DNA from: Acidobacteriota bacterium
Lineage (GTDB): Bacteria; Acidobacteriota; UBA6911; RPQK01; JAPXNP01
DNA: 49,908 nucleotides
Direction of reading: 5' to 3'
Assembly: GCA_020350445.1 (NCBI GenBank)
Contig: CP070717.1
Coordinates: 2,461,443-2,511,350, forward strand
In this document: positions 20,223 to 37,569 of the stretch, in pieces
How positions within the stretch are numbered: position 1 is the stretch's first letter
Layout of the letters: each line of letters starts with the position of its first letter
Program-made: the position numbers and the translations under genes
Notes under the pieces: generated by a model
What the model saw: the letters and a program-made list of their open reading frames with translations, nothing else
Database searches by the model: none
What the model was told of the DNA's origin: nothing

Positions 20223-21569
20223 TTACTTGATATTGTAGGCCTTGAGCTTCCGATGCAGGTAGCTTCGCTCCATCCCGATCGCCGCCGCAGTCCGCGAGAT
20301 ATTCCCCTCGTTGGCCGCCAGGCTCTTCAAGATGAAATCCCGCTCGAATTCCTCACGCGCCCGCAACCATGAGTTACTTCCCCCGGCATTCTGCCCGTTG
20401 GCTGAAGCCTTGATGATCGAAAGCGGAAGGTCGAACTCGCACACTTCCTCCTTCTGGAGCATTATGACCAGTCGTTCAACAGTGTTCTTCAATTCCCTGA
20501 CATTACCCGGCCAGTGATAGGCCTTGAGCCGATGCAGGGCTTCTTCTGAGAACGTCTTCTCCGATTTACCGTATCGCCGACTGAAAAGTTCCATGAAGTG
20601 GTCAAGAAGGAGCGGGACATCTTCCGGCTTCTGGCGCAGCGGCGGGACCTCGAACGGGATCACATTGAGCCTGAAAAACAGGTCTTCGCGAAACGTCCCG
20701 GCCTCAATGTGCTGCTCTAGATTCTTGTTTGTCGCCGCGATCACCCGCACGTCGACATCGATGCTGGAGTTACTCCCCACCGGATGGAAACGCTGTTCTT
20801 CCAGGACACGCAACACTTTCGCCTGGGTTTTGAGACTCATGTCGCCGACTTCATCCAGAAACAACGTCCCCTGGTGGGCGAGTTCAAATTTCCCTTTCCG
20901 GCTCTCCGTTGAGCCGGTGTAAGCCCCCTTCACACTTCCGAAAAGTTCGCTCTCGATCAAGTCATCCGGGATGGCGGCGCAATTCACTTCCACGAACTGC
21001 CGTTTAGATCTCGGGCTCTGCAGATGAAGCAGCCTGGCTACCAGTTCCTTTCCAGTCCCGTTTTCGCCGTAGATCAAAACCCTCCCCTCAGTAGGGGCGG
21101 CATAGACAATCTGCTGACGCAGCGCCTGCATCGGAACCGAAGTCCCGATCATCACCGTTTCACGCCGGACAAACTCCTTGAGACTCTCATTCTCCGTCTC
21201 GAGAAGCTGCTGGTTGAGTGCGTGTTCGAGCACCAGCATAATCTTGTCGAGCGAAAGAGGCTTTTCCACAAAATCAAACGCCCCGAGCTTGGTCGCCTGC
21301 ACGGCAGTTTCGATAGAACCGTGTCCCGAAATCATGATGACGAAGGCGGTAGGTGCCAGCGTCTTGAGTTCCTTTAAGACGGCGAGCCCATCCATCCCCG
21401 GAAGCCAGACATCCAGGAAAATGACATCGTAGGACCGTTGTTCAACCTGGTGCAGGCACTCTTCGCCGCTCCCAACCGCGTCAACCGAGTAGCCTTCGTC
21501 CTCCAGGACGCCGCCCAGGGAACTCCTGACGTTATCTTCATCATCAACAACTAGTAACTTCGCCTTCAT
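20223..21569 (-). CDS. NtrX-like sigma-54-dependent response regulator
   Basis: Protein of 448 residues. The receiver domain has DDED near residues 9-12 and the phosphoacceptor Asp in VIFLDVWLPGMDG near residue 52. The AAA+ domain has Walker A GENGTGKE and the sigma-54-contacting loop GAYTGS, in which Tyr replaces the usual Phe of GAFTGA. The C-terminal Fis-type helix-turn-helix ends NISRTAAAIGMERSYLHRKLKAYNIK in two overlapping stretches, closely resembling NtrX. It should activate sigma-54 promoters when phosphorylated. Its ATG overlaps the stop of the kinase gene by 4 nt, so the pair is translationally coupled. Confidence 0.93.
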   Translation of the reverse strand: MKAKLLVVDDEDNVRSSLGGVLEDEGYSVDAVGSGEECLHQVEQRSYDVIFLDVWLPGMDGLAVLKELKTLAPTAFVIMISGHGSIETAVQATKLGAFDFVEKPLSLDKIMLVLEHALNQQLLETENESLKEFVRRETVMIGTSVPMQALRQQIVYAAPTEGRVLIYGENGTGKELVARLLHLQSPRSKRQFVEVNCAAIPDDLIESELFGSVKGAYTGSTESRKGKFELAHQGTLFLDEVGDMSLKTQAKVLRVLEEQRFHPVGSNSSIDVDVRVIAATNKNLEQHIEAGTFREDLFFRLNVIPFEVPPLRQKPEDVPLLLDHFMELFSRRYGKSEKTFSEEALHRLKAYHWPGNVRELKNTVERLVIMLQKEEVCEFDLPLSIIKASANGQNAGGSNSWLRAREEFERDFILKSLAANEGNISRTAAAIGMERSYLHRKLKAYNIK

Positions 21570-23767
21570 ACCTCTCGTCTTCCCCGATTCAGCAGCGGGA
21601 TTTCCATCACGATCCGAGTTCCCCGAGGCAGATTCGGCTCGGCCCGGATAAAGCCATCATGCTCAGAAACAATCTGTCGGACAATAGCCAATCCCAATCC
21701 AGTCCCCTTCTTCTTGCGGGAGAAATAGGGAAGAAAGAGATGATCGTAATCATCGACCGGTATACCGTGACCCGTATCCTCCACCGCAATCGTTACCGAT
21801 GCACGGTCCTGGTTATGGGATGTCCTGATCCTGATCTGCCGTTCCCCTGGAACTTCAACAAGAGCATCCAGCGAGTTCTCCAACAGATTCACGAACACCC
21901 GCTGCATCTGCTCAGGATCAATCCAGATCAACTGTACCAAAGGATCGAAATCCCGAACCACCTCGACAGAGTTCAAATGCCCATCATAGAGTGACAGCGT
22001 CTTGTCTATCAGGGCATGCAAATCCGCATCCTGCGGCTTACAGATCGGAAGCCTGGCAAACCGGGAAAACTCTGACAACAGGTTCTTTAACCTTCGAGAT
22101 TCCGAAACGATCATCCGAGAAGCTTCCCCTACCAACTGGCGAAAGTCGCGCAATTCAACAGATTCAGGGAGAGTCTCAGCCACTCGATCGAATCGACGGC
22201 TGATTCTCTCGGCCGACAGCTGAATTGGAGTCAACGGATTCTTGATCTCATGGGCCAGCCGGCGCGCCACTTCCTGCCAGGCGGCAAACTTCTCGGCCCG
22301 GATCAACTCGGTCAAATCATCGAGCACGATCAGGTAATCGAAATGCTCTCCGGAAGGTCCCGGGCTCGTCGTGATCGTCGCGGCGACATAGAGCTGGCTT
22401 TCATTCCGTCGAATGGTCACCTGTTTACGAGCCGTGCCAAAGAGCCGGGCCTTCTTCTTCAGTTCCCTGAACTCCAGGTAGAGTTCCTGGTCGGTGACAA
22501 CCTTCATATGCCGCGAAAGGATCTCGCGAGGAGTTGTCTGTAACATCTTCAGCGCCGCCTGATTCACCGTTCGAATCACCTCAGACTCGTCCACGGTCAG
22601 AACCCCTGTCGCGATGTTCTGAAGCACTGCCTCGATGTAGCGTCTTCGCTCGTCCAACTGGATATTTGATTTCTGGAGTTCCTGGTTGGCCTTCTCCAAC
22701 TCGGACCGGCTCTGCTTGAGCTGTGCCGCCATTTGGTTGAACGAGGCCACCAGGATGCCCAGTTCATCGACGGCATCGACATCAACGCGATGATCCAGGT
22801 TTCCACTGGCCAGAGCTCGCGAGCCCTCCGCAAGCGCCTCCAGTGGAACGGTCAACCGCCTCGCGATGTAGTTCCCCAGCCAGACGAAGGCAAAAACGAC
22901 CGCCAGGGTGGTCAATCCCAGGATGAGCAGATAGTGGTTCCGGAGAGATGCCAGGGTCCCTCTCAACCCCTTGTAGACTTCATTCGCCTCTTGGACGCGA
23001 GCCGTATGGAAGGCGATGCTTTCCTGCTCTTCCATTTCGAGAAACAGAATGCCGCCTTCATTCAACCGGAGTCCCACGACCCCCCGATCCACGATTCCGG
23101 TCTCGGTGTTGACCCGCTTCTCCAAATCAACGATGGCGCCTTGTTCCAAAACACGTTGGATCCGATCGCCATAATCCCTGGGGATGGCGGAGTCGGCAGA
23201 GCTCAGGAGCCGGCCCTCGGCATCGGTCAGAACGACATCGCTGAACCCTACCTCGGCAGCCGCCTTCCGAAAGGCTTCGAAGTCATCCAGTCCGACCTTG
23301 CCCACCAGATTCACAGCAGTCGCAATTGCCGCTTTCTCCTGCAGTTCGTAATAGCGCGCTGCAATCTCGGACGAGGAATCCAGCAATTGCTCGGATGGCG
23401 CACTCATCCAATTGGTGAGGTTCTGATTGATCAGGCCAAAAGCCATAAAACTCATAATCAGCGCCGGAAAGAGCGAGAAAATGATGAAGGTCAGAACGAG
23501 CTTGCTCCGAATCTTGCTCCCCGGTTGGCCGGCATGCAGCTCAAAAAATAGATGGATCAGGGTCCGAGCCAGCACGAAGGTCAGGATCAGAACCGCAATA
23601 AAGATGAGTGCCCAGACAAAAGCCCAGAGGTTGAAATTCCACAGGAAGTTCCTGTTCCCCACCGATGATGGATTCAGGAAGATCACGCTGATCAGGAAAG
23701 CCAGCACAAAAAAGACAAGGAATCCAGTCAGCCAATAGATTCTGCGAAGGAGTTGCTTGCGTCTCAT
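21566..23767 (-). CDS. NtrY-like sensor histidine kinase
   Basis: Protein of 733 residues. Three N-terminal membrane segments (about residues 11-31, 46-70, 88-112) precede an extracytoplasmic sensing domain, a fourth TM near 285, a HAMP linker (NLDHRVDVDAVDELG), a PAS domain with VLTVDESEVIRTVN, a HisKA domain with the phosphorylatable His in RRLAHEIKNPLTPIQ, and a HATPase with FVNLLENSLDAL, DTGHGI and GTGLGLAI. This is the NtrY layout. NtrY/NtrX pairs regulate nitrogen, redox or envelope responses in different bacteria; the signal here is unknown. It diverges from hyuA. Confidence 0.93.
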   Translation of the reverse strand: MRRKQLLRRIYWLTGFLVFFVLAFLISVIFLNPSSVGNRNFLWNFNLWAFVWALIFIAVLILTFVLARTLIHLFFELHAGQPGSKIRSKLVLTFIIFSLFPALIMSFMAFGLINQNLTNWMSAPSEQLLDSSSEIAARYYELQEKAAIATAVNLVGKVGLDDFEAFRKAAAEVGFSDVVLTDAEGRLLSSADSAIPRDYGDRIQRVLEQGAIVDLEKRVNTETGIVDRGVVGLRLNEGGILFLEMEEQESIAFHTARVQEANEVYKGLRGTLASLRNHYLLILGLTTLAVVFAFVWLGNYIARRLTVPLEALAEGSRALASGNLDHRVDVDAVDELGILVASFNQMAAQLKQSRSELEKANQELQKSNIQLDERRRYIEAVLQNIATGVLTVDESEVIRTVNQAALKMLQTTPREILSRHMKVVTDQELYLEFRELKKKARLFGTARKQVTIRRNESQLYVAATITTSPGPSGEHFDYLIVLDDLTELIRAEKFAAWQEVARRLAHEIKNPLTPIQLSAERISRRFDRVAETLPESVELRDFRQLVGEASRMIVSESRRLKNLLSEFSRFARLPICKPQDADLHALIDKTLSLYDGHLNSVEVVRDFDPLVQLIWIDPEQMQRVFVNLLENSLDALVEVPGERQIRIRTSHNQDRASVTIAVEDTGHGIPVDDYDHLFLPYFSRKKKGTGLGLAIVRQIVSEHDGFIRAEPNLPRGTRIVMEIPLLNRGRREV

Positions 23768-28486: not shown

Positions 28487-30271
28487 ATGACAAGACGCTA
28501 TTTGCCAATCCTTCTGTTACCCGTCCTCGTATTCGCTCTGCAGGCAAATAGTGTCGCGAACTCCTCTTCCGGAAATCTGAGTGGACTTCTGCTCAATGAA
28601 GCGGGAAGGCCACTGGCCAACCTGGTCGTTTCTCTCCTGAGTTCGACGACATCCCAGTCCCTGCCGACATTGGCCCGGACAGACGCGCAGGGCAGGATTT
28701 TTCTGAAGGATCTCGCAGCCGGCACCTATCAGTTGATGGTAAAGAGTGCCCGGTACCGGAGTCCAGAACGACGGATGATAGAGATTCTCCCGAACCGGAC
28801 TGCCGTTGTCACCCTGATCCTGCAACAGGTTTTTGGAGTCGAAGAAGGGTTTGATGAGAACCTCGGGATCAAGGCGTTGCTGCGCGGCTCGCAGAGCCGG
28901 CGGCTGGTCTTCCGACACAACACCGACCCTCAGGATATCTTCTCTGGAGAAGATGGCCCCAAGCGGCTTTTCCAGGACGCTGTTTTCCAGGTTTATACGA
29001 ACAGCGGACTCGGCGGAAACTACTTCGTGTTTCCCGGTGACCCCTGGGGTGGAACATCCACCAACTTTGCCGTCGTTGATTCACTGGGTGGGAACTCTGA
29101 CTACGTTTTCGCAGGACAGTTGAATTCCGGTCAGGACTCCATCTGGAGACTGAGAAACGTGCTCCGCTTTGAAATGAGCGATCGGCATTCCCTCCATGTC
29201 TTCCTGGGCTATGGAAGGATCAGCTTCGATCAGCCAAGCTTGTCCCTGCTGGATAATCCAGGCTCCCTGAGAGATGAGCCCGGAGGGTTTACGTCAGCCA
29301 GCAGCAATTCCCAGTTGCTCAATCTGGGCTTCGAGGACCGTCACAAGCTCGGCTCCGCTGTCACCCTGACCTGGGGATTGGAGTTGGATCAATTTCGAGG
29401 ATTTGAGAAGAAGGCGTTTCTGAGTCCGTCCGCCGGCCTCGAAATCCGTCCGGCGGAAAAGACCCTTATCAAGCTCCAGATGGCGTCGAAGCGATCTACG
29501 ACCGGTAACACGCTTGCGCTGCCAGAGGGAGACCAGATCAGCTTGGCCAACCCGCTGCAGATTGCCCGCGTTGGTAACATCGTCAGCTACGGGACTGCCC
29601 GGCACTACCAGGCCCAGTTGACGCAGTATGTCGGCTCAGACAACCAACTGGAGTTCGCGCTCTTCGAAGATTCGATGTTCAGTGGTTCGGTCCCGATCGT
29701 AGCGGTCTGGGAAGTGAGCCGCCAGATGGATCTCCTGCGGCTGCAGAATCATGAGGCGTTCAGCCGCGGATATCGCTTCACCATGCGGCGAAAGCTGTCC
29801 CAGAATCTCAGCGCCGAGATATCGTTTGTTCGGGCACAGGCTCCTGGTGTCGACGGCAGTCTGGACAACCTGAACTTCTTTAATGAACGATCTCAGTTGG
29901 TGGAGCGACGTCGATTCAATGCGATTTCGACGCGGATTGATGCCTTTGTACCCAGGTCACAGACCCAGTTGACAGCATTGATCAAGGTCGTCCCATCCTC
30001 TAACCCGCTGATCCCGCTGGATCTGATGTCGGATGTTTACGAAACCGGCAATGAGGGTTTTAACCTTTTTGTGCGTCAGATCCTCCCTCTTCCGGATCAG
30101 TTCCTTGGGTTGCTCGGACTTGAGTTCCTGACTCCCGAGCGGATCGAGGCACTGATCGACATCCGAAACCTGCTCGGCCAGGATCTCGGTGATTTCCAGA
30201 CCTCGGATGGAACTATAAGACTCGTTCAGAACCCGCGATCGGTTCGCGGCGGCATCGCGTTCCGTTTTTGA
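28487..30271 (+). CDS. Outer-membrane barrel protein with CarboxypepD_reg-like domain (TonB-receptor-like)
   Basis: Protein of 594 residues. A signal peptide (about residues 4-21) is followed by a carboxypeptidase-regulatory-like beta domain (NLSGLLLNEAGRPLANLVVSL to LPNRTAVVTLILQQ, in about residues 24-115). The remaining 450 residues alternate short amphipathic strands and turns and finish RGGIAFRF, with the terminal Phe typical of outer-membrane barrels. This resembles the oar/CarboxypepD_reg TonB-receptor families of Acidobacteria. It is shorter than usual receptors (800-1100 residues) and I cannot see a clear plug domain, so it may be a reduced receptor or a different porin-like barrel. 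ExbB/ExbD genes lie 5 kb downstream. Confidence 0.7.
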   Translation: MTRRYLPILLLPVLVFALQANSVANSSSGNLSGLLLNEAGRPLANLVVSLLSSTTSQSLPTLARTDAQGRIFLKDLAAGTYQLMVKSARYRSPERRMIEILPNRTAVVTLILQQVFGVEEGFDENLGIKALLRGSQSRRLVFRHNTDPQDIFSGEDGPKRLFQDAVFQVYTNSGLGGNYFVFPGDPWGGTSTNFAVVDSLGGNSDYVFAGQLNSGQDSIWRLRNVLRFEMSDRHSLHVFLGYGRISFDQPSLSLLDNPGSLRDEPGGFTSASSNSQLLNLGFEDRHKLGSAVTLTWGLELDQFRGFEKKAFLSPSAGLEIRPAEKTLIKLQMASKRSTTGNTLALPEGDQISLANPLQIARVGNIVSYGTARHYQAQLTQYVGSDNQLEFALFEDSMFSGSVPIVAVWEVSRQMDLLRLQNHEAFSRGYRFTMRRKLSQNLSAEISFVRAQAPGVDGSLDNLNFFNERSQLVERRRFNAISTRIDAFVPRSQTQLTALIKVVPSSNPLIPLDLMSDVYETGNEGFNLFVRQILPLPDQFLGLLGLEFLTPERIEALIDIRNLLGQDLGDFQTSDGTIRLVQNPRSVRGGIAFRF

Positions 30272-30362
30272 CAATTCGGCTGACGGCATTCTCGGACAGA
30301 GCTTCTCAAATCCCTCTCAGATAGTGGTTGAATAGCCTTATTCGCCGTACCTCCAAGAATAT

Positions 30363-30413
30363 GGATTGGAATCCAGAATATTGGATCGGACTAAAAACTG
30401 AAGGATTGGATCG
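30363..30413 (+). promoter_or_regulatory. Cluster of ATTGGA boxes, candidate upstream activator sites
   Basis: GGATTGGAATCC (30363-30374) is a perfect palindrome with a GG centre. ATTGGATCG follows at 30380-30388 and again at 30405-30413. The cluster lies about 97-147 bp upstream of the predicted sigma-54 start, a normal enhancer distance for sigma-54 activators. The binding protein is inferred, possibly the regulator encoded at 33450. Confidence 0.45.
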
Positions 30414-30458
30414 CCCCGTAAATTCGGGCCTTTTCCGCCGGAATTGAATCGAAACCGG

Positions 30459-30472
30459 GGACCACCTGGTCC
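30459..30472 (+). repeat. Inverted repeat GGACCA-CC-TGGTCC
   Basis: Perfect 6-bp arms around CC, 10 bp upstream of the sigma-54 element. Candidate operator. Confidence 0.45.
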
Positions 30473-30482
30473 TCAGGAACGA

Positions 30483-30499
30483 TTGGCATTGAACGTGCT
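30483..30499 (+). promoter_or_regulatory. Sigma-54 (-24/-12) promoter of the kinase-regulator operon
   Basis: The 17-mer begins TTGGCATT and ends GTGCT, with GG at 30485-30486 and GC at 30497-30498. The 12-bp GG-to-GC spacing is exactly that of sigma-54 promoters (consensus TTGGCACG-N4-TTGCW). Predicted transcription start is near 30510, leaving a leader of about 82 nt. The downstream operon encodes a sigma-54 activator, which supports a functional, autoregulated promoter. Confidence 0.7.
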
Positions 30500-30515
30500 G
30501 TAAACAATATAGAGA

Positions 30516-30553
30516 GGAACTAGGTAGAGTTCCGTAGGGAGGTTGTCGCCTCC
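30516..30553 (+). repeat. Two consecutive stem-loops in the predicted kinase leader
   Basis: GGAACT/AGTTCC (30516-30533, 6-nt loop) and GGAGG/CCTCC (30538-30553, 6-nt loop) lie within the first 45 nt after the predicted sigma-54 start. No T-run follows, so they are not intrinsic terminators. They may affect mRNA stability or translation, or be protein sites on DNA. Confidence 0.45.
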
Positions 30554-30591: not shown

Positions 30592-33435
30592 ATGGCGGCA
30601 TTTGCCCGCGTGAAGACAATTCTGCTGCTGGTGCTGGTCCCCGTTTCGGTCTATATCGGGGTCCTCAACCTGCTCGACCGGCTGGACTGGAAGACTCCAT
30701 CCGACGGCCTCGATCTGATCCAGACCGTCAACGGTGTCAAGGTTGCCCCGGGCGACTGGAGCCAGGTTTCCAGTGAGATTTCAGAAGGCGACCTTCTCGC
30801 TGATATCAACGGCATGGTCATCACGACCCTCGACGACTACTTCGAGGTCTTGGATGCGTTTGCCCAGGGATCAGAAGAGTCCTTTGTCGCTGACTACACA
30901 CTTAAGCGGGCGGGAAGCGATGAAGAACTGACACTGCCAGTCCGGCTGGAATTGAGACCGCAATTCTCAGCGTCTGATATCCCCCTGCTCGTCGTGGCAC
31001 TCGCATTTCTCGGGATCGGAGTCTTCGTCTACATCAGGAACGGCACCGCCCCGGGAGTCTTCCATTTCACGCTGCTTTGTGTTGTCGGCTTCATTTTGCT
31101 GGCCTATCGATTTTCCGGACGGGGGGATGGTTTCGACCAGGGAATCTACTGGATAACGGTCGGAACGATGCTTCTACTTCCACCATTGTTCCTCCATTTC
31201 TGCTCAGCCTTTCCCGCTCCGACATTCTGGGTTCGTGGAAGGGCGTACAGCCTGATCCTGGTCTACATCCCGGGGATTCTTCTCGGGATCGCCCATACCT
31301 TCTGGTTCATGGGACGCCTCAAGTTGATCGGGTTGCCAAGAACGCCCGAGATCGGGCATGTGTTTGACAAGGTGGAACTCGCCTATTTCGCCGGCTACCT
31401 CGCTCTTTCTGCGGTGATCTTGATTCGCTCAGGTGGGCGAGCCGAGGATCCGATTCACCGGAAGCAGATGCGGTGGATCAGTACCGGGACATTGCTGGGA
31501 CTCGTACCTTTTTGTCTCCTTTACGTCCTGCCCTATCTTTTGGGCTTACGGATCACGACCTGGATGGAAGGGAGCGTTCTGGCACTTGTTTTCGTGCCAC
31601 TCAGCTTTGGGTATGCTATCGCCAAGTTCCGCATCACCGATGTCGACCTGATCTTCAACCGTGGTATCGCTTACGTCCTGGCCAGTTCCACTCTACTGGC
31701 TTTCTACATTTCGGTCGCGGTGCTGATTACCCGCGCCCTCCAGGAATTCTCCCCCGGTTCGAGCTTCATCCTGCTGGCGGCATCCGCGCTGGCGGTTGCG
31801 GTGCTCTTTGCTCCATTGAAGGACAAGATCCAGGTACAGATCGACCGCCGGTTCTACAAGGATCGTTACGGGTACCGGCGTTCGCTGCTGGAGTTTGGCC
31901 AGACCCTGGGCTCTGAGATTCATCTGACCCGGCTGACTGAGAAGATCGCGGACCGCATCCAAAAAACACTGGATGTCTCGGCCGTGTCTATCTTCCTGCG
32001 TGAGGACGGCAATTCGGCCACGTTCCGGATGGAAACCGGGCTCAACCTCGATCGGGATACTCAAACAGTTTCGGTCCAACTCGAAGAGAAGGACTTGATC
32101 GACCTTGGCTACGGCGTAGGCTCCCTGGGTATCGATGCAGCGGGAAGCTCTTCCGTTCGGGCCCAGCTTTTCCGGTGGGGCATCCGGTATATCGAACCGC
32201 TTGCTGTACGTGGCAGGATTATTGGCTTCCTAGGTCTAAGCCGCAGAAAAAACGGCGATTTCCTGAGTACCGAAGACCTTGAAATGGTCGGCTCACTGGC
32301 CCGATATGCAGCCATCGCAGTGGACAATGCGCTCCTGTATCGATCCCTGGAAGCCAAGGCCAACGAACTCCTCCAGCTACGAATCTACAGCGAAAACGTT
32401 GTTGAGAGCATCCGACTGGGTGTGGCCGTCATTTCAGCAAACGGTGAGATCACCGTCTGGAACAGTGCGATGGAAGGCCTGACTGGTCTGGATCCCGCCG
32501 CTGCAATCGGAAAACGCATTCAGGACACCTTGCCGGAGAGCCTGCTCAGTGCACTACAGGAAATCGTCGACGGTCCAGACTGGCTGGTCAAAGGAGTGCG
32601 CCGGATTTTCAAAGCTCACCTCAGGACAAGCGACGACCAGACCCGCCTGATCAACATTACGCTCTCGCCATTCGTCTCTTACGAGAACATCAATACAGGC
32701 ACCTTGCTGGTAGCGGACGATATCACCGAAAAGACTCACTTGGAAAACCAGGTACAGCAGGCAGAGAAACTCAGTTCCATCGGACTGTTCGCAGCGGGCC
32801 TGGCTCATGAAGTCAATACTCCGCTGACAGGTATTTCGAGCTACTCACAGATGCTACTTGAGGAGACCCCGGCCAGCGATCCTCGACATGAACTGCTCTC
32901 CAAGATTGAAAGGCAGTCGTTCCGGGCTTCAGAGATCATCAACAACCTGCTGAACTTTGCCCGTTTCTCCGACTCCGACTTTCAGGAGGTCAACCTGAAC
33001 ACGCTGCTGATGGATACCCTCTCTCTGCTCGAACCTCAGTTGCGACGAAGCCAGATTGAGATCAAAACCGAATTCGACGCGACCCTTCCCAAGACTCGAG
33101 GAAATGGTGGAAAATTGCAGCAGGTCTTTATGAACCTGTTTCTGAATGCCCGCGACTCAATGGCAGAAGGCGGTTGTCTGAGTCTGCGAACCTTTCGTAG
33201 AAGAGCCGACTTGGTAGTCCAGATTCAGGATACTGGAATGGGCATCTCAAAAGAGGACATCAAACGGATCTACGACCCGTTTTTCACCACCAAAAACGTA
33301 GGCGAGGGGACGGGCCTGGGGCTATCTATCTCCTATGGTATTATTCAGGAGCATTCAGGTCGAATATCTGTGGAGAGCACGCCTGGGACAGGAACGACCT
33401 TCTCACTTTATTTGCCTATAACTCGAGTTAACTAG
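30592..33435 (+). CDS. Multi-domain sensor histidine kinase: PDZ-like, 7TM-like, GAF, PAS
   Basis: Protein of 947 residues from the ATG at 30592, with GAGG 5 nt upstream; a GTG at 30562 is less likely. Order: TM1 (about 6-24), a PDZ-like extracytoplasmic domain (EGDLLADINGMVITTLDDYF), a block of about seven membrane segments (about 133-385), a GAF domain (about 430-590), a PAS domain (VAVISANGEITVWNSAMEGL), HisKA with the phosphorylatable His in LAHEVNTPLTG, and a HATPase (FMNLFLNARDSM, DTGMGIS, GTGLGLSISYG). The signal is unknown. The partner regulator starts 14 nt downstream. A sigma-54 promoter precedes the gene. Confidence 0.92.
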   Translation: MAAFARVKTILLLVLVPVSVYIGVLNLLDRLDWKTPSDGLDLIQTVNGVKVAPGDWSQVSSEISEGDLLADINGMVITTLDDYFEVLDAFAQGSEESFVADYTLKRAGSDEELTLPVRLELRPQFSASDIPLLVVALAFLGIGVFVYIRNGTAPGVFHFTLLCVVGFILLAYRFSGRGDGFDQGIYWITVGTMLLLPPLFLHFCSAFPAPTFWVRGRAYSLILVYIPGILLGIAHTFWFMGRLKLIGLPRTPEIGHVFDKVELAYFAGYLALSAVILIRSGGRAEDPIHRKQMRWISTGTLLGLVPFCLLYVLPYLLGLRITTWMEGSVLALVFVPLSFGYAIAKFRITDVDLIFNRGIAYVLASSTLLAFYISVAVLITRALQEFSPGSSFILLAASALAVAVLFAPLKDKIQVQIDRRFYKDRYGYRRSLLEFGQTLGSEIHLTRLTEKIADRIQKTLDVSAVSIFLREDGNSATFRMETGLNLDRDTQTVSVQLEEKDLIDLGYGVGSLGIDAAGSSSVRAQLFRWGIRYIEPLAVRGRIIGFLGLSRRKNGDFLSTEDLEMVGSLARYAAIAVDNALLYRSLEAKANELLQLRIYSENVVESIRLGVAVISANGEITVWNSAMEGLTGLDPAAAIGKRIQDTLPESLLSALQEIVDGPDWLVKGVRRIFKAHLRTSDDQTRLINITLSPFVSYENINTGTLLVADDITEKTHLENQVQQAEKLSSIGLFAAGLAHEVNTPLTGISSYSQMLLEETPASDPRHELLSKIERQSFRASEIINNLLNFARFSDSDFQEVNLNTLLMDTLSLLEPQLRRSQIEIKTEFDATLPKTRGNGGKLQQVFMNLFLNARDSMAEGGCLSLRTFRRRADLVVQIQDTGMGISKEDIKRIYDPFFTTKNVGEGTGLGLSISYGIIQEHSGRISVESTPGTGTTFSLYLPITRVN

Positions 33436-33449
33436 GATCCAACTGTCTC

Positions 33450-34829
33450 ATGTCAACCCCTTCCATTTTGCTGATCGATGACGAAGAGATCATGCGCGAT
33501 GTCATCTCGAAGCTTCTCAAGAAAGAGGGCTTCAATGTACTGACCGCTGCCAACGGCACCGAAGGAATGGAAGTGTTGCAGGAAGAGGCCATCGACCTGG
33601 TTCTACTCGACCTCATGTTGCCAGGAAAGAGCGGCGCCGTACTTCTGCCCGAGATCCTCGACCTTGACCCCGACATCATTGTCATCATGATTTCGGCCTA
33701 TGCTTCGATTGAAAACGCCGTCGAAGCCACCAAGAAGGGCGCCTATGATTTCGTCACGAAGCCGTTCAAGAATGAGGAGTTAATCCACATCATTCGAAAT
33801 GGTCTCCGCCGGCGGAGCCTCGAACTCGAGAACCGGCGGCTCAGAGAGACCTTTGAGAAGCGCTTTGCCTTCCAGAACCTGATCGGTAAGAGCGAGGCCA
33901 TGCAGCGAACCTTCGACCTGATCAGCCATGTTGGCCCCAGCCGTTCTACGGTGTTGATTGAAGGGGAGAGCGGAACAGGCAAGGAATTGGTTGCCAAAGC
34001 GATTCATAACTGCAGCCCCCGATCGGACAAGCCCTTTGTCGCTCTTAACAGCGGCAGCATTCCCGCGGATCTGTTAGAAAGCGAGCTGTTTGGGCATGTC
34101 AAAGGAGCCTTCACGGGTGCGGTATCCACCAAGAAGGGCCTTTTCGAGATTGCTGACACAGGCACCGTCTTCCTCGATGAAATCGGCACACTCCCCATGC
34201 AGACCCAGGCGAAACTCCTGCGGGTCATCCAGGAAAGGGAGTTCCGGCGGGTGGGTGGTCTGGAGAATATCAGGGTCGATGTCCGGATCGTGGCGGCCAC
34301 GAATATTGATCTCAGAGAAGCGGTCGAAAGGGGTGAGTTCCGCGATGATCTCTACTATCGATTGAACGTGATCACGATCCATCTCCCTCCGTTGAGAGAG
34401 CGGAAGGACGATATCCCCCTGTTGGCCGAATACTTTCTAAACCGCTTCTGCGAAGCCGATGGCCGTGAGCCCTGTACGCTGGACCAGAATGCCCTCAAAC
34501 TCCTGATTGAGTACGACTGGCCAGGGAATGTACGTGAACTGGAAAACGCCATTGAACGAGCTGTTGTACTAGTACCTGAAGACGGGGTTATCACGCAGGC
34601 CATTTTCCCACGCGACATCCTCGATTCAACATCAGTCAGTCTCAGCCGGCTTGGACTCAGTGCCAACGGGGCCTCCCTTAAGGATCTCGTACTGGAATTC
34701 GAGAAAAACCTGATTATCACGGCCCTCAAAAAGGCCGAATGGAATCAGAAGAAAGCTGCCAGTATGCTCAAGGTGAATCCAACAACATTGAACGAGAAGC
34801 TGAAGCGTCTCAATATCTCGATCCCTTGA
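33450..34829 (+). CDS. Sigma-54-dependent response regulator (NtrC family)
   Basis: Protein of 459 residues. Receiver domain with IDDEE near residue 9 and the acceptor Asp in LVLLDLMLPGKSG near residue 52; AAA+ domain with Walker A GESGTGKE, the intact sigma-54 loop GAFTGA and the FLDEIGTLP Walker B; C-terminal Fis-type helix-turn-helix (WNQKKAASMLKVNPTTLNEK). It should activate sigma-54 promoters after phosphorylation by the kinase encoded 14 nt upstream. The sigma-54 element before that kinase makes positive autoregulation likely. Distinct from the NtrX-like regulator at 20223, which has GAYTGS. No terminator is seen after the stop. Confidence 0.94.
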   Translation: MSTPSILLIDDEEIMRDVISKLLKKEGFNVLTAANGTEGMEVLQEEAIDLVLLDLMLPGKSGAVLLPEILDLDPDIIVIMISAYASIENAVEATKKGAYDFVTKPFKNEELIHIIRNGLRRRSLELENRRLRETFEKRFAFQNLIGKSEAMQRTFDLISHVGPSRSTVLIEGESGTGKELVAKAIHNCSPRSDKPFVALNSGSIPADLLESELFGHVKGAFTGAVSTKKGLFEIADTGTVFLDEIGTLPMQTQAKLLRVIQEREFRRVGGLENIRVDVRIVAATNIDLREAVERGEFRDDLYYRLNVITIHLPPLRERKDDIPLLAEYFLNRFCEADGREPCTLDQNALKLLIEYDWPGNVRELENAIERAVVLVPEDGVITQAIFPRDILDSTSVSLSRLGLSANGASLKDLVLEFEKNLIITALKKAEWNQKKAASMLKVNPTTLNEKLKRLNISIP

Positions 34830-35051: not shown

Positions 35052-35690
35052 TTGATAGTTGCACTCGGAGGACCTCTTTGGGAGTACTTCGGCCAGGGCG
35101 GCCCACTCATGTGGCCCCTGCTTGGCTGTTCCATTGCTGGTGTCATCTTCATCGTCGAACGAGCGATCGCCTACTACCGCGTCAAGGGAGACACGGCTGA
35201 GATCGTGAGCGAAGTCAGAGAGTCTCTGCTGCAGCACGAGCTGCGAAGATCCATTGAGATTTGTGAGAGCTTTGACCACCCCGTGGCGATCACGCTCAAG
35301 TCGGGCCTGCTTCGCTTTGGGAAGTCTCACGCTGAGATTGAGAAGGCGATGGAGAGTGTTGCGCTTCACGAGGTTTCAAAGCTGGAAAAAGGGCTGTGGA
35401 TCTTGGCCACTATCGCCAACATCGCCCCGCTTTTCGGGTTTACCGGAACGGTCACTGGTATGATCGGGTCCTTTGAAGCTCTCGCTGAGGTCGGACTCGG
35501 AAACCCCGAGGCTGTTGCCGGCGGAATCTCGGAGGCACTCATTACAACGGCAACCGGATTGCTTATCGCACTGCCTGTCCAGGCCGCCTACAATTACTTC
35601 AACAACCGTGTTTCCCAGTTTGCCTTGGACATGGAGATCAGTTCGTCGGTTCTGCTCGAGACCTTCAGTGAAATCGAGGTTGGGGAGTAA
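35052..35690 (+). CDS. exbB: MotA/TolQ/ExbB proton-channel family protein
   Basis: Protein of 212 residues with three membrane segments (about 17-40, 113-140, 160-182) in the ExbB/TolQ order. It has the conserved LFGFTGTVTGMI and EALITTATGLLIALP regions, the second holding the pore-lining Thr residues. With ExbD it uses the proton gradient to energise TonB- or TolA-type partners. The start is a TTG at 35052, 7 nt after a full GGAGGG ribosome site; the nearer ATG at 35047 encodes only two codons (ATG ATT TGA). First gene of a four-gene operon. ExbB and TolQ cannot be separated by sequence alone; no tolA or pal is nearby. Confidence 0.88.
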   Translation: MIVALGGPLWEYFGQGGPLMWPLLGCSIAGVIFIVERAIAYYRVKGDTAEIVSEVRESLLQHELRRSIEICESFDHPVAITLKSGLLRFGKSHAEIEKAMESVALHEVSKLEKGLWILATIANIAPLFGFTGTVTGMIGSFEALAEVGLGNPEAVAGGISEALITTATGLLIALPVQAAYNYFNNRVSQFALDMEISSSVLLETFSEIEVGE

Positions 35691-35692
35691 CA

Positions 35693-36130
35693 ATGAGACT
35701 GCGTGAGCAGGTCTGGACGATCAAGCCAACAGTTCCGACAGCCTCGATGGCTGATATCGCCTTCCTGCTGATCATCTTCTTCATGTTGACGACCTCCTAT
35801 TCTCCGGAAAAGACGAGTGTCATTCTTCCTGAGTCTCAAATCCGGGTCGAGGTTACGAAAGATCCCTCCATCATCGCCATCACAGAGGAGGGAAACATCG
35901 TCTTCACCTCGGGAGAAGAGACCTCGGTTCCCCTTGCGGGTCCCGACGAACTGGGCTTGATCGCGAAAGAGATCATTGAACTGGTGCCGGCAAAGGAATT
36001 CGTCGTCAAAGCGGATCGGAACGCGCGCTATGAGGCAGTCGATGGTGTCTTGGAGGCGCTGAGAACCAACGGAGTCAAGAGGATCGGGTTCTTGACCCGG
36101 GCCGAAGTGCAGAATTCGGAGAATCCTTGA
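35693..36130 (+). CDS. exbD: ExbD/TolR family biopolymer transport protein (first copy)
   Basis: Protein of 145 residues. A short cytoplasmic N-terminus is followed by the single membrane helix SMADIAFLLIIFFMLTTSY, with the conserved Asp that carries protons, and a periplasmic domain of about 100 residues ending VKRIGFLTRAEVQ. The start is 2 nt after the exbB stop. It forms the ExbB-ExbD motor. The helix region is almost identical at DNA level to that of the next gene, while the periplasmic parts differ, suggesting a heterodimer of two ExbD types. Confidence 0.9.
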   Translation: MRLREQVWTIKPTVPTASMADIAFLLIIFFMLTTSYSPEKTSVILPESQIRVEVTKDPSIIAITEEGNIVFTSGEETSVPLAGPDELGLIAKEIIELVPAKEFVVKADRNARYEAVDGVLEALRTNGVKRIGFLTRAEVQNSENP

Positions 36131-36137
36131 GACGACT

Positions 36138-36575
36138 ATGAGTAAGAAATCGAAATTCCGACGCTCACCTGAAATCCCGACAGCCTCGATGGCTGACGTA
36201 GCCTTCCTGCTGATCGTCTTCTTCATGTTGACGGCGGTGTTCACGACAACCCAGGGGCTGCGCTTTCAGTTCCCCAAGGATGATCCCACTCAACTCAACA
36301 TTCAGCCCGAAGAATCGGTTCACATCAAGATTACCGGCGTCGACCAATTCGTCGTCGATCGACTCCCGATGACGCTGGCCGAGATCGGAGGGTATGTCCA
36401 GTCGAAGGTCTCGCAGAACCCCAAAAAGCCGGTGATTATTCAGACGATGCCCGACGTCCCCTACTACGTGATGGTGGACGTCTTCGATCTCCTCAAGCAG
36501 TTGGAAGTGCAGAATGTCTCGATTCCGACTGAGTCAGAGATCGAACGATGGCGGCAACTGGGATACTTCGAATAA
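36138..36575 (+). CDS. exbD: ExbD/TolR family biopolymer transport protein (second copy)
   Basis: Protein of 145 residues with the same layout as the preceding gene: membrane helix SMADVAFLLIVFFMLTAVF with the conserved Asp, then a periplasmic domain (HIKITGVDQFVVDRLPM, then PVIIQTMPDVPYYVMVDVFD). It lies 7 nt after the first copy. Two consecutive exbD genes after one exbB are common in Bacteroidetes and Acidobacteria TonB systems. No tonB gene is found in the window, so the energised partner is elsewhere or is the downstream TPR protein. Confidence 0.9.
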   Translation: MSKKSKFRRSPEIPTASMADVAFLLIVFFMLTAVFTTTQGLRFQFPKDDPTQLNIQPEESVHIKITGVDQFVVDRLPMTLAEIGGYVQSKVSQNPKKPVIIQTMPDVPYYVMVDVFDLLKQLEVQNVSIPTESEIERWRQLGYFE

Positions 36576-36597
36576 CTGCAACAAGGATCGGGACCCG

Positions 36598-37569
36598 ATG
36601 AAAGTCCGGCTTTTCGGCATTTTGACCCTTCTTCTCTCCAGCCTGTCTCTTTCCGCTCTCGGACAAGGCGATTTCCAAAAAGGAATCTCTTACTACAAGC
36701 AGGGACAGTACGCCAAGGCGGTGCAGGAATTCGAACAGATCGTCAAGCAGAGCCCCGATTATGAGGCAGGATACCTGGTTCTAGGTGATTCCTACCTGAA
36801 ACTGCGCCAGTTTGAAAAAGCGGCGCAGTCTTTTCACAAGGCTATTGATCTCGAAGGGGGGAAGTTCGTCTCCTACCGTGGTGCCGCAGTGGCAGAGTAC
36901 AACCTGGGCCGCTATCAGGATGTCATCGCAACACTGCTCAAGGCCGAGGGCCTTGCCGGCACGGCACGTGAGAAGTATCAGTTGTTCCAGCTCAGGGGTT
37001 CCGCCTATTACAGCCTCGGCCGCTTCCGCCCCGCGGTTCGCGACCTCGAGCAGGCGACCTCGGTTCAACGAACTGATAAGACCGCGCTTCTCCAGCTTGG
37101 CATCAGCTATTACCAACTCAAGGAATTCGACCGGGCCAAGACAACGCTACAGCAAGTCCTCGGTCTCGATCCTGACCTGGCTGAGGCTAAGCGCTTCCTA
37201 TCCCGGTTGGACTACCAGGAAGCCCTGGATGCGATTCGGGAACAACGCTACCAGGAAGCGGCTTCTCAGCTGACCCGGGTCGTCCAAGCCAGTCCCACTG
37301 ACGGGGAAGCGTGGTTCAACCTTGGCCTCGCCCAGCTGTTTTCCGAAGATGTCGATGGTGCCCTCAAATCCTTCCTCCAGAGTGCCCAACTACTCCCGGA
37401 AAACTGGGAAACCCATGACCGCCTCGGCTTCATTTTCGAGACGAAGGGACAGTACGCGGCCGCTCTTCAGAGCTACAAGAAGGCTGCGGAACTCAACCCG
37501 GGCGGAACGAGTCCAGAGAGTGTGTCCCGCGTCGAAGAACGCATCCGCCGACAGCGCGAAGGGACTTGA
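36598..37569 (+). CDS. Exported tetratricopeptide-repeat protein of the ExbBD operon
   Basis: Protein of 323 residues from the ATG at 36598, which begins a good signal peptide (hydrophobic to about residue 20, cleavage near ALGQG). The frame stays open to 36514, but that part overlaps exbD and lacks signal character. Repeats such as YYKQGQYAKAVQEFEQIV, SAYYSLGRFRPAVRDLEQA and ISYYQLKEFDRAKTTLQQ give about eight TPR units. It starts 22 nt after the second exbD, with GGGA upstream. ExbBD-TPR linkage resembles the TtpA/TonB-associated TPR systems known in some bacteria; this comparison is inference. Confidence 0.85.
   Translation: MKVRLFGILTLLLSSLSLSALGQGDFQKGISYYKQGQYAKAVQEFEQIVKQSPDYEAGYLVLGDSYLKLRQFEKAAQSFHKAIDLEGGKFVSYRGAAVAEYNLGRYQDVIATLLKAEGLAGTAREKYQLFQLRGSAYYSLGRFRPAVRDLEQATSVQRTDKTALLQLGISYYQLKEFDRAKTTLQQVLGLDPDLAEAKRFLSRLDYQEALDAIREQRYQEAASQLTRVVQASPTDGEAWFNLGLAQLFSEDVDGALKSFLQSAQLLPENWETHDRLGFIFETKGQYAAALQSYKKAAELNPGGTSPESVSRVEERIRRQREGT

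Follow-up and report, generated by a model that had tools for sequence, protein, structure and literature searches.

The window analyzed here, a stretch of 49,908 nucleotides from an Acidobacteriota genome (C1:2461443-2511350), contains a two-component system preceded by what looks like a sigma-54 promoter with repeated boxes upstream, and the question raised by this locus is whether these elements serve the signalling operon alone or other genes as well. The site is very probably the sigma-54 promoter and enhancer of an operon whose regulator activates a subset of Oar-like receptor genes in Acidobacteriota; i.e. the two-component system most likely switches on TonB-dependent receptors as well as itself. 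The features of the locus are as follows.

28487-30271, + strand: outer-membrane protein with a CarboxypepD_reg/CnaB-like domain and a beta-barrel (synteny; Pfam on the window protein and an ortholog; AlphaFold model; Foldseek)
30352-30365, + strand: putative activator site, dyad 1, TCCAAGAATATGGA (TYCA-N6-TGRA), first of a tandem pair, conserved about 133 bp upstream (-133) of the -24 TGG in orthologs
30372-30385, + strand: putative activator site, dyad 2, TCCAGAATATTGGA, second of the pair, 20 bp downstream of dyad 1
30405-30410, + strand: third ATTGGA
30459-30472, no strand assigned: palindrome GGACCACCTGGTCC (GGACCA/TGGTCC), specific to the window
30484-30498, + strand: predicted sigma-54 -24/-12 promoter TGGCATTGAACGTGC, aligned with the corresponding elements of 18 orthologs
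30592-33435, + strand: sensor histidine kinase with a PDZ-like and 7TM N-terminal part, GAF, PAS, HisKA and HATPase_c (Pfam; start from ortholog alignment)
33450-34829, + strand: NtrC-type response regulator with REC, Sigma54_activat containing GAFTGA, and a Fis-type HTH with a TTLN recognition helix (Pfam, alignment, HTH comparison)
35052-36575, + strand: ExbB-ExbD-ExbD of the TonB energiser type (Pfam for ExbB, ORF translations, synteny)

The -24/-12 element at 30484-30498 is confirmed by alignment as a real and conserved candidate promoter. Its GG (30485-30486) and GC (30497-30498) lie 12 bp apart, start to start, which places the predicted +1 near 30510. TGGCAY-N5-TTGC or a one-base variant occupies the matching place, with scores of 9-10/10, in 18/18 orthologous leaders, the sample being the 18 genomes with a readable intergenic stretch before the kinase, where the same upstream gene is usually present. 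The window's own copy matches 8/10 consensus positions (9/10 if C/T is accepted at the sixth) and has a -12 (GTGC) that departs from consensus; it has the lowest score among the 19 leaders, with GG and GC intact. The earlier note had located the element at 30483-30499 with GG and GC 12 bp apart and had staked its reading on conservation in relatives; the spacing was verified, and the element is kept in every one of the 18 orthologous leaders.

The paired dyads begin some 95-135 bp upstream of the -24 element, an enhancer-like position. In every one of the 19 leaders the two are spaced by 19-22 bp, with 20 bp in the window, or about two helical turns; the second inverted repeat is weak in several of these leaders. 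A search for the tandem dyad pattern found it in 12/18 genomes of the order, with 0 matches for the reversed control. The box consensus is a 16 bp inverted repeat, RTYCAA-N4-TTGRAY. Three ATTGGA boxes had been described before, and they are indeed present at 30365, 30380 and 30405, the first two within the conserved dyads; the third has no counterpart in the ortholog alignment and was rejected as a conserved box. The proposal that the binding box is built on ATTGGA accordingly gives way to the dyad pair as the conserved predicted site. In one kinase leader (L088) a run of four dyads, spaced by about 21-22 bp, takes the place of the usual two.

Other features that had been pointed out around the promoter turned out to be local. 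The GGACCA/TGGTCC repeat exists close upstream of the promoter in the window, and it is absent upstream of the promoter in 18/18 orthologs, which rejects it as a conserved operator. Two stem-loops opening the leader were likewise found in the window (z = -1.66), and no excess RNA structure was seen in the orthologous leaders (mean z +0.2), so that a conserved leader RNA structure was also rejected.

The first gene of the operon most likely starts at ATG 30592, and not at GTG 30562, since the ortholog starts align at 30592; the N-terminus of the predicted kinase gives a weak PDZ-like Pfam match, and the 7TM region was seen in an ortholog. For the second gene, Pfam domains and alignment agree with the earlier identification of an NtrC-type activator with an intact GAFTGA loop, a motif that is also intact in most other activators of the same genome. 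The TTLN recognition helix is present in all acidobacterial members compared, except for one TTLS in a close relative set; three proteobacterial-type relatives lack it, as do the other activators that could be read in the window's genome. Among those other activators, a large predicted protein (G000:C1:398255) has GSYTGA in place of GAFTGA. The window itself contains another pair on the - strand (20652-23767), an NtrY-like kinase at 21566-23767 and a sigma-54 activator with its domain at about 20652-21152; this activator gave no GAFTGA match in a strict G.[FY]TGA search. The acidobacterial kinase-regulator pair of the operon studied here is also carried by CALQBJ020000001.1, a record titled Bifidobacterium breve that looks mislabelled.

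The pair shares its general layout with known systems and belongs to none of those compared. As in NtrC-family systems with a transmembrane kinase (AtoSC, ZraSR and PilSR type), a REC-AAA(GAFTGA)-Fis HTH regulator stands beside a PAS-HisKA kinase, whereas the sensor part and the apparent targets differ; the best curated-model scores were 458 bits for AtoC and 287 bits for AtoS (cut-offs 714 and 646), and every NCBIfam equivalog model shown, including those for AtoC/AtoS, ZraR and NtrC, fell below its curated cut-off. PrsK/PrsR of the XrtA/PEP-CTERM systems likewise combines a multi-TM, GAF-containing kinase with a sigma-54 regulator, but its targets are PEP-CTERM genes, in contrast to the TonB-dependent receptors that are the apparent targets here, and membership was rejected with scores below the cut-offs (113 vs 300 bits for TIGR02916 and 409 vs 502.6 bits for TIGR02915).

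What else carries the box was addressed by genome-wide searches. The earlier note had proposed looking in related genomes for boxes beside -24/-12 elements; run with the dyad, a 60-120 bp gap and TGGCAY-N5-TTGC, and with the reversed pattern as control, this search gave 34 matches vs 0 reversed in the 18 genomes of the order and 76 vs 2 in 60 relatives, and a pattern with a tighter dyad and looser -24 gave 45 vs 1. The genes downstream are predominantly receptors: leaving aside self sites (those of the kinase operon) and non-self sites at contig ends, Oar-like TonB-dependent receptor genes follow 28/33 of the non-self sites that could be assessed within the order (tighter pattern), and TonB-dependent receptors follow 26/40 non-self sites among the 60 relatives (first pattern). 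Receptors were called by Pfam OMP_b-brl_4 and CarboxypepD_reg together with a home-made profile; of 17 proteins scanned in the vicinity of sites, 14 score far above cut-off for OMP_b-brl_4 and almost all of these have CarboxypepD_reg, with a Plug signal that in several is weak or missing. In the genomes where they were counted there are 13-59 such receptors, roughly 1% of genes or fewer, and the enrichment is far greater than chance would give, with a probability of about 1e-40 for a nearly identical tally of 26/39, a value that treats the sites as independent though they are not fully so, related genomes being non-independent observations and many relatives fragmentary metagenome assemblies. 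Self and receptor sites appear to share one box, since positions 1, 6, 11 and 16, which lie outside the first search pattern, are conserved alike in both.

Only a minority of receptor genes are preceded by the site, which was found in 9/69 sampled receptor upstream regions, compared with 2 when read in the reverse orientation and 0.3 after shuffling; the idea that the system controls every receptor gene was therefore rejected. The partial list for the window's own genome comprises at least three boxed receptor genes, including those at C1:760640 and C1:1618435 and a further one, with a weaker -24, upstream of C1:4189996. The same genome has a strong dyad and TGGCAC-N5-TTGC before a multicopper-oxidase-like frame (G000:C1:361047), which is not a receptor. 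In another genome, a response regulator that has a guanylate cyclase domain (G015:C334) follows a site that looks weaker, possibly by chance, possibly as a signalling target.

These results bear on the earlier proposal of a dedicated, positively autoregulated signalling switch. With promoter and paired boxes conserved through the class, positive autoregulation through sigma-54 is supported as the best reading of the kinase leader, as a prediction from sequence comparison. The word dedicated is too narrow: because TonB-dependent receptor genes have these boxes upstream as well, autoregulation would be one part of a regulon.

The arrangement of genes in other classes connects the regulator with these receptors. 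The regulator usually occurs without the kinase in Blastocatellia and Pyrinomonadaceae-type genomes, and a receptor gene lies directly downstream of it in 15 loci, at least five of which have the dyad and a -24/-12 element between the two genes. In Vicinamibacteria the order barrel protein-kinase-regulator is seen again, several genomes having dyads and a TGGAAC-type promoter, and promoter and dyads precede the kinase again in further named genomes, the Vicinamibacteria TGGAAC variant among them. Since a boxed receptor gene adjoins the regulator and TTLN is conserved alongside the box, the encoded regulator is the likely reader of the box, as a matter of predicted binding.

Two other explanations concern what the boxes mean. 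Chance matches in an AT-rich intergenic region have in their favor that each short motif is common alone, the window holding 16 promoter-like elements (those scoring at least 8 in 49.9 kb, both strands) and 22 dyad-like matches; dyads lie upstream of only the promoter-like element at 30484-30498, position and spacing are conserved in 18 orthologs, and reversed controls gave 0-2 matches vs 34-76, so that this explanation, to which we attach practically no probability, is already refuted. A plain autoregulatory sigma-54 promoter, with the regulator's real targets elsewhere and the receptor boxes read by a different activator with a similar box, is unlikely but deserves more weight, as AT-rich dyads are common for Fis-type HTH activators and about a dozen activators are encoded in the genome. 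All 60 relatives searched contain a relative of the regulator, with 74-76% identity for the closest, but in distant phylum members the best match is only 44-50% identical, which also leaves room for a different activator. Against it stand the adjacency of regulator and boxed receptor gene in Blastocatellia-type genomes, the single consensus common to self and receptor boxes, and a TTLN helix that is kept together with the box and occurs in no other readable activator of the genome.

The remaining explanation, that the window promoter is a decaying relic left after the loss of sigma-54, draws on the weakness of this promoter relative to the other 18 and on the failure to find an rpoN match at E<=1 in the 5.13 Mb assembly. 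This scaffolded assembly is interrupted every few kb by 100-N gaps (e.g. C1:1262644-1262743), so gene absences in it mean little. Relatives have the gene order lptA-lptB-rpoN-hprK-ptsI, and in the window's assembly lptB runs into a 100-N gap, ptsI lies on another piece, and hprK and lysS of that stretch are missing together with rpoN. The gap sits exactly at the expected place of rpoN, whose absence is most simply an assembly gap, and loss of the gene was dropped. An rpoN match was found in 57/60 genomes (56 over the cut-off), the GAFTGA loop is preserved in the window's regulator and in the majority of the other activators, and the receptor-gene boxes persist in the window's genome, all of which makes a relic very improbable.

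Control of both the operon and receptor genes by the encoded regulator, the preferred reading, suggests the following course of events. An envelope signal, perhaps via the adjacent outer-membrane barrel protein, would reach the PDZ-like/7TM sensor part of the kinase, and kinase signalling would lead to phosphorylation of the NtrC-type regulator. An oligomer of the regulator would occupy the paired dyads, two helical turns apart and about 95-150 bp upstream, and remodel the sigma-54 polymerase through GAFTGA, and output would rise for both the regulator's own operon and the receptor genes. The evidence in hand consists of promoter and dyad conservation, the receptor-gene targets, the adjacency of regulator and receptor in other classes and the intact catalytic motifs; actual binding, the direction of the effect (activation), phosphorylation and the signal are what we infer.

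Within the order, the barrel gene adjoins the kinase on its 5' side in every case that the contigs permitted us to inspect, and it is found again in other classes; the AlphaFold model of the protein is of moderate confidence (mean pLDDT 68), with Foldseek matches to TonB-dependent transporters. It is possible that this protein is the sensing partner of the kinase, and a relay from it to the PDZ domain would be attractive, if conjectural. ExbB, two ExbD and a TPR protein come directly after the regulator (35052-37569), which fits the TonB theme, and no boxed promoter was found in the window ahead of exbB or ahead of the barrel gene.

FecIR-type and HTCS/SusCD systems are dedicated to regulating outer-membrane receptors in response to an envelope signal, and do so through ECF sigma/anti-sigma pairs or through hybrid regulators of the AraC type; unlike these, the system described here would use sigma-54 and an NtrC-type activator. 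No earlier description of the system, or of a regulator for these receptors, was found in the open-access literature. A pan-bacterial survey of sigma-54 regulons predicted promoters in many phyla and flagged TonB (COG0810) in Flavobacteriia; neither Acidobacteriota nor a regulon of TonB-dependent receptors is named in its main text (PMC12316311).

Whether the findings extend to a phylum-wide sigma-54 regulon, established early in Acidobacteriota, in which barrel protein, PDZ/7TM kinase and TTLN regulator in turn would select the receptors displayed, is in our estimation evenly balanced. The Acidobacteriota, which are abundant in soil, have large TonB-dependent receptors by the dozen whose substrates are unassigned; with a regulator named, its box defined and its targets listed, the purpose and timing of these receptors would become directly testable, and sigma-54 control would extend to a class of genes not usually linked to it.
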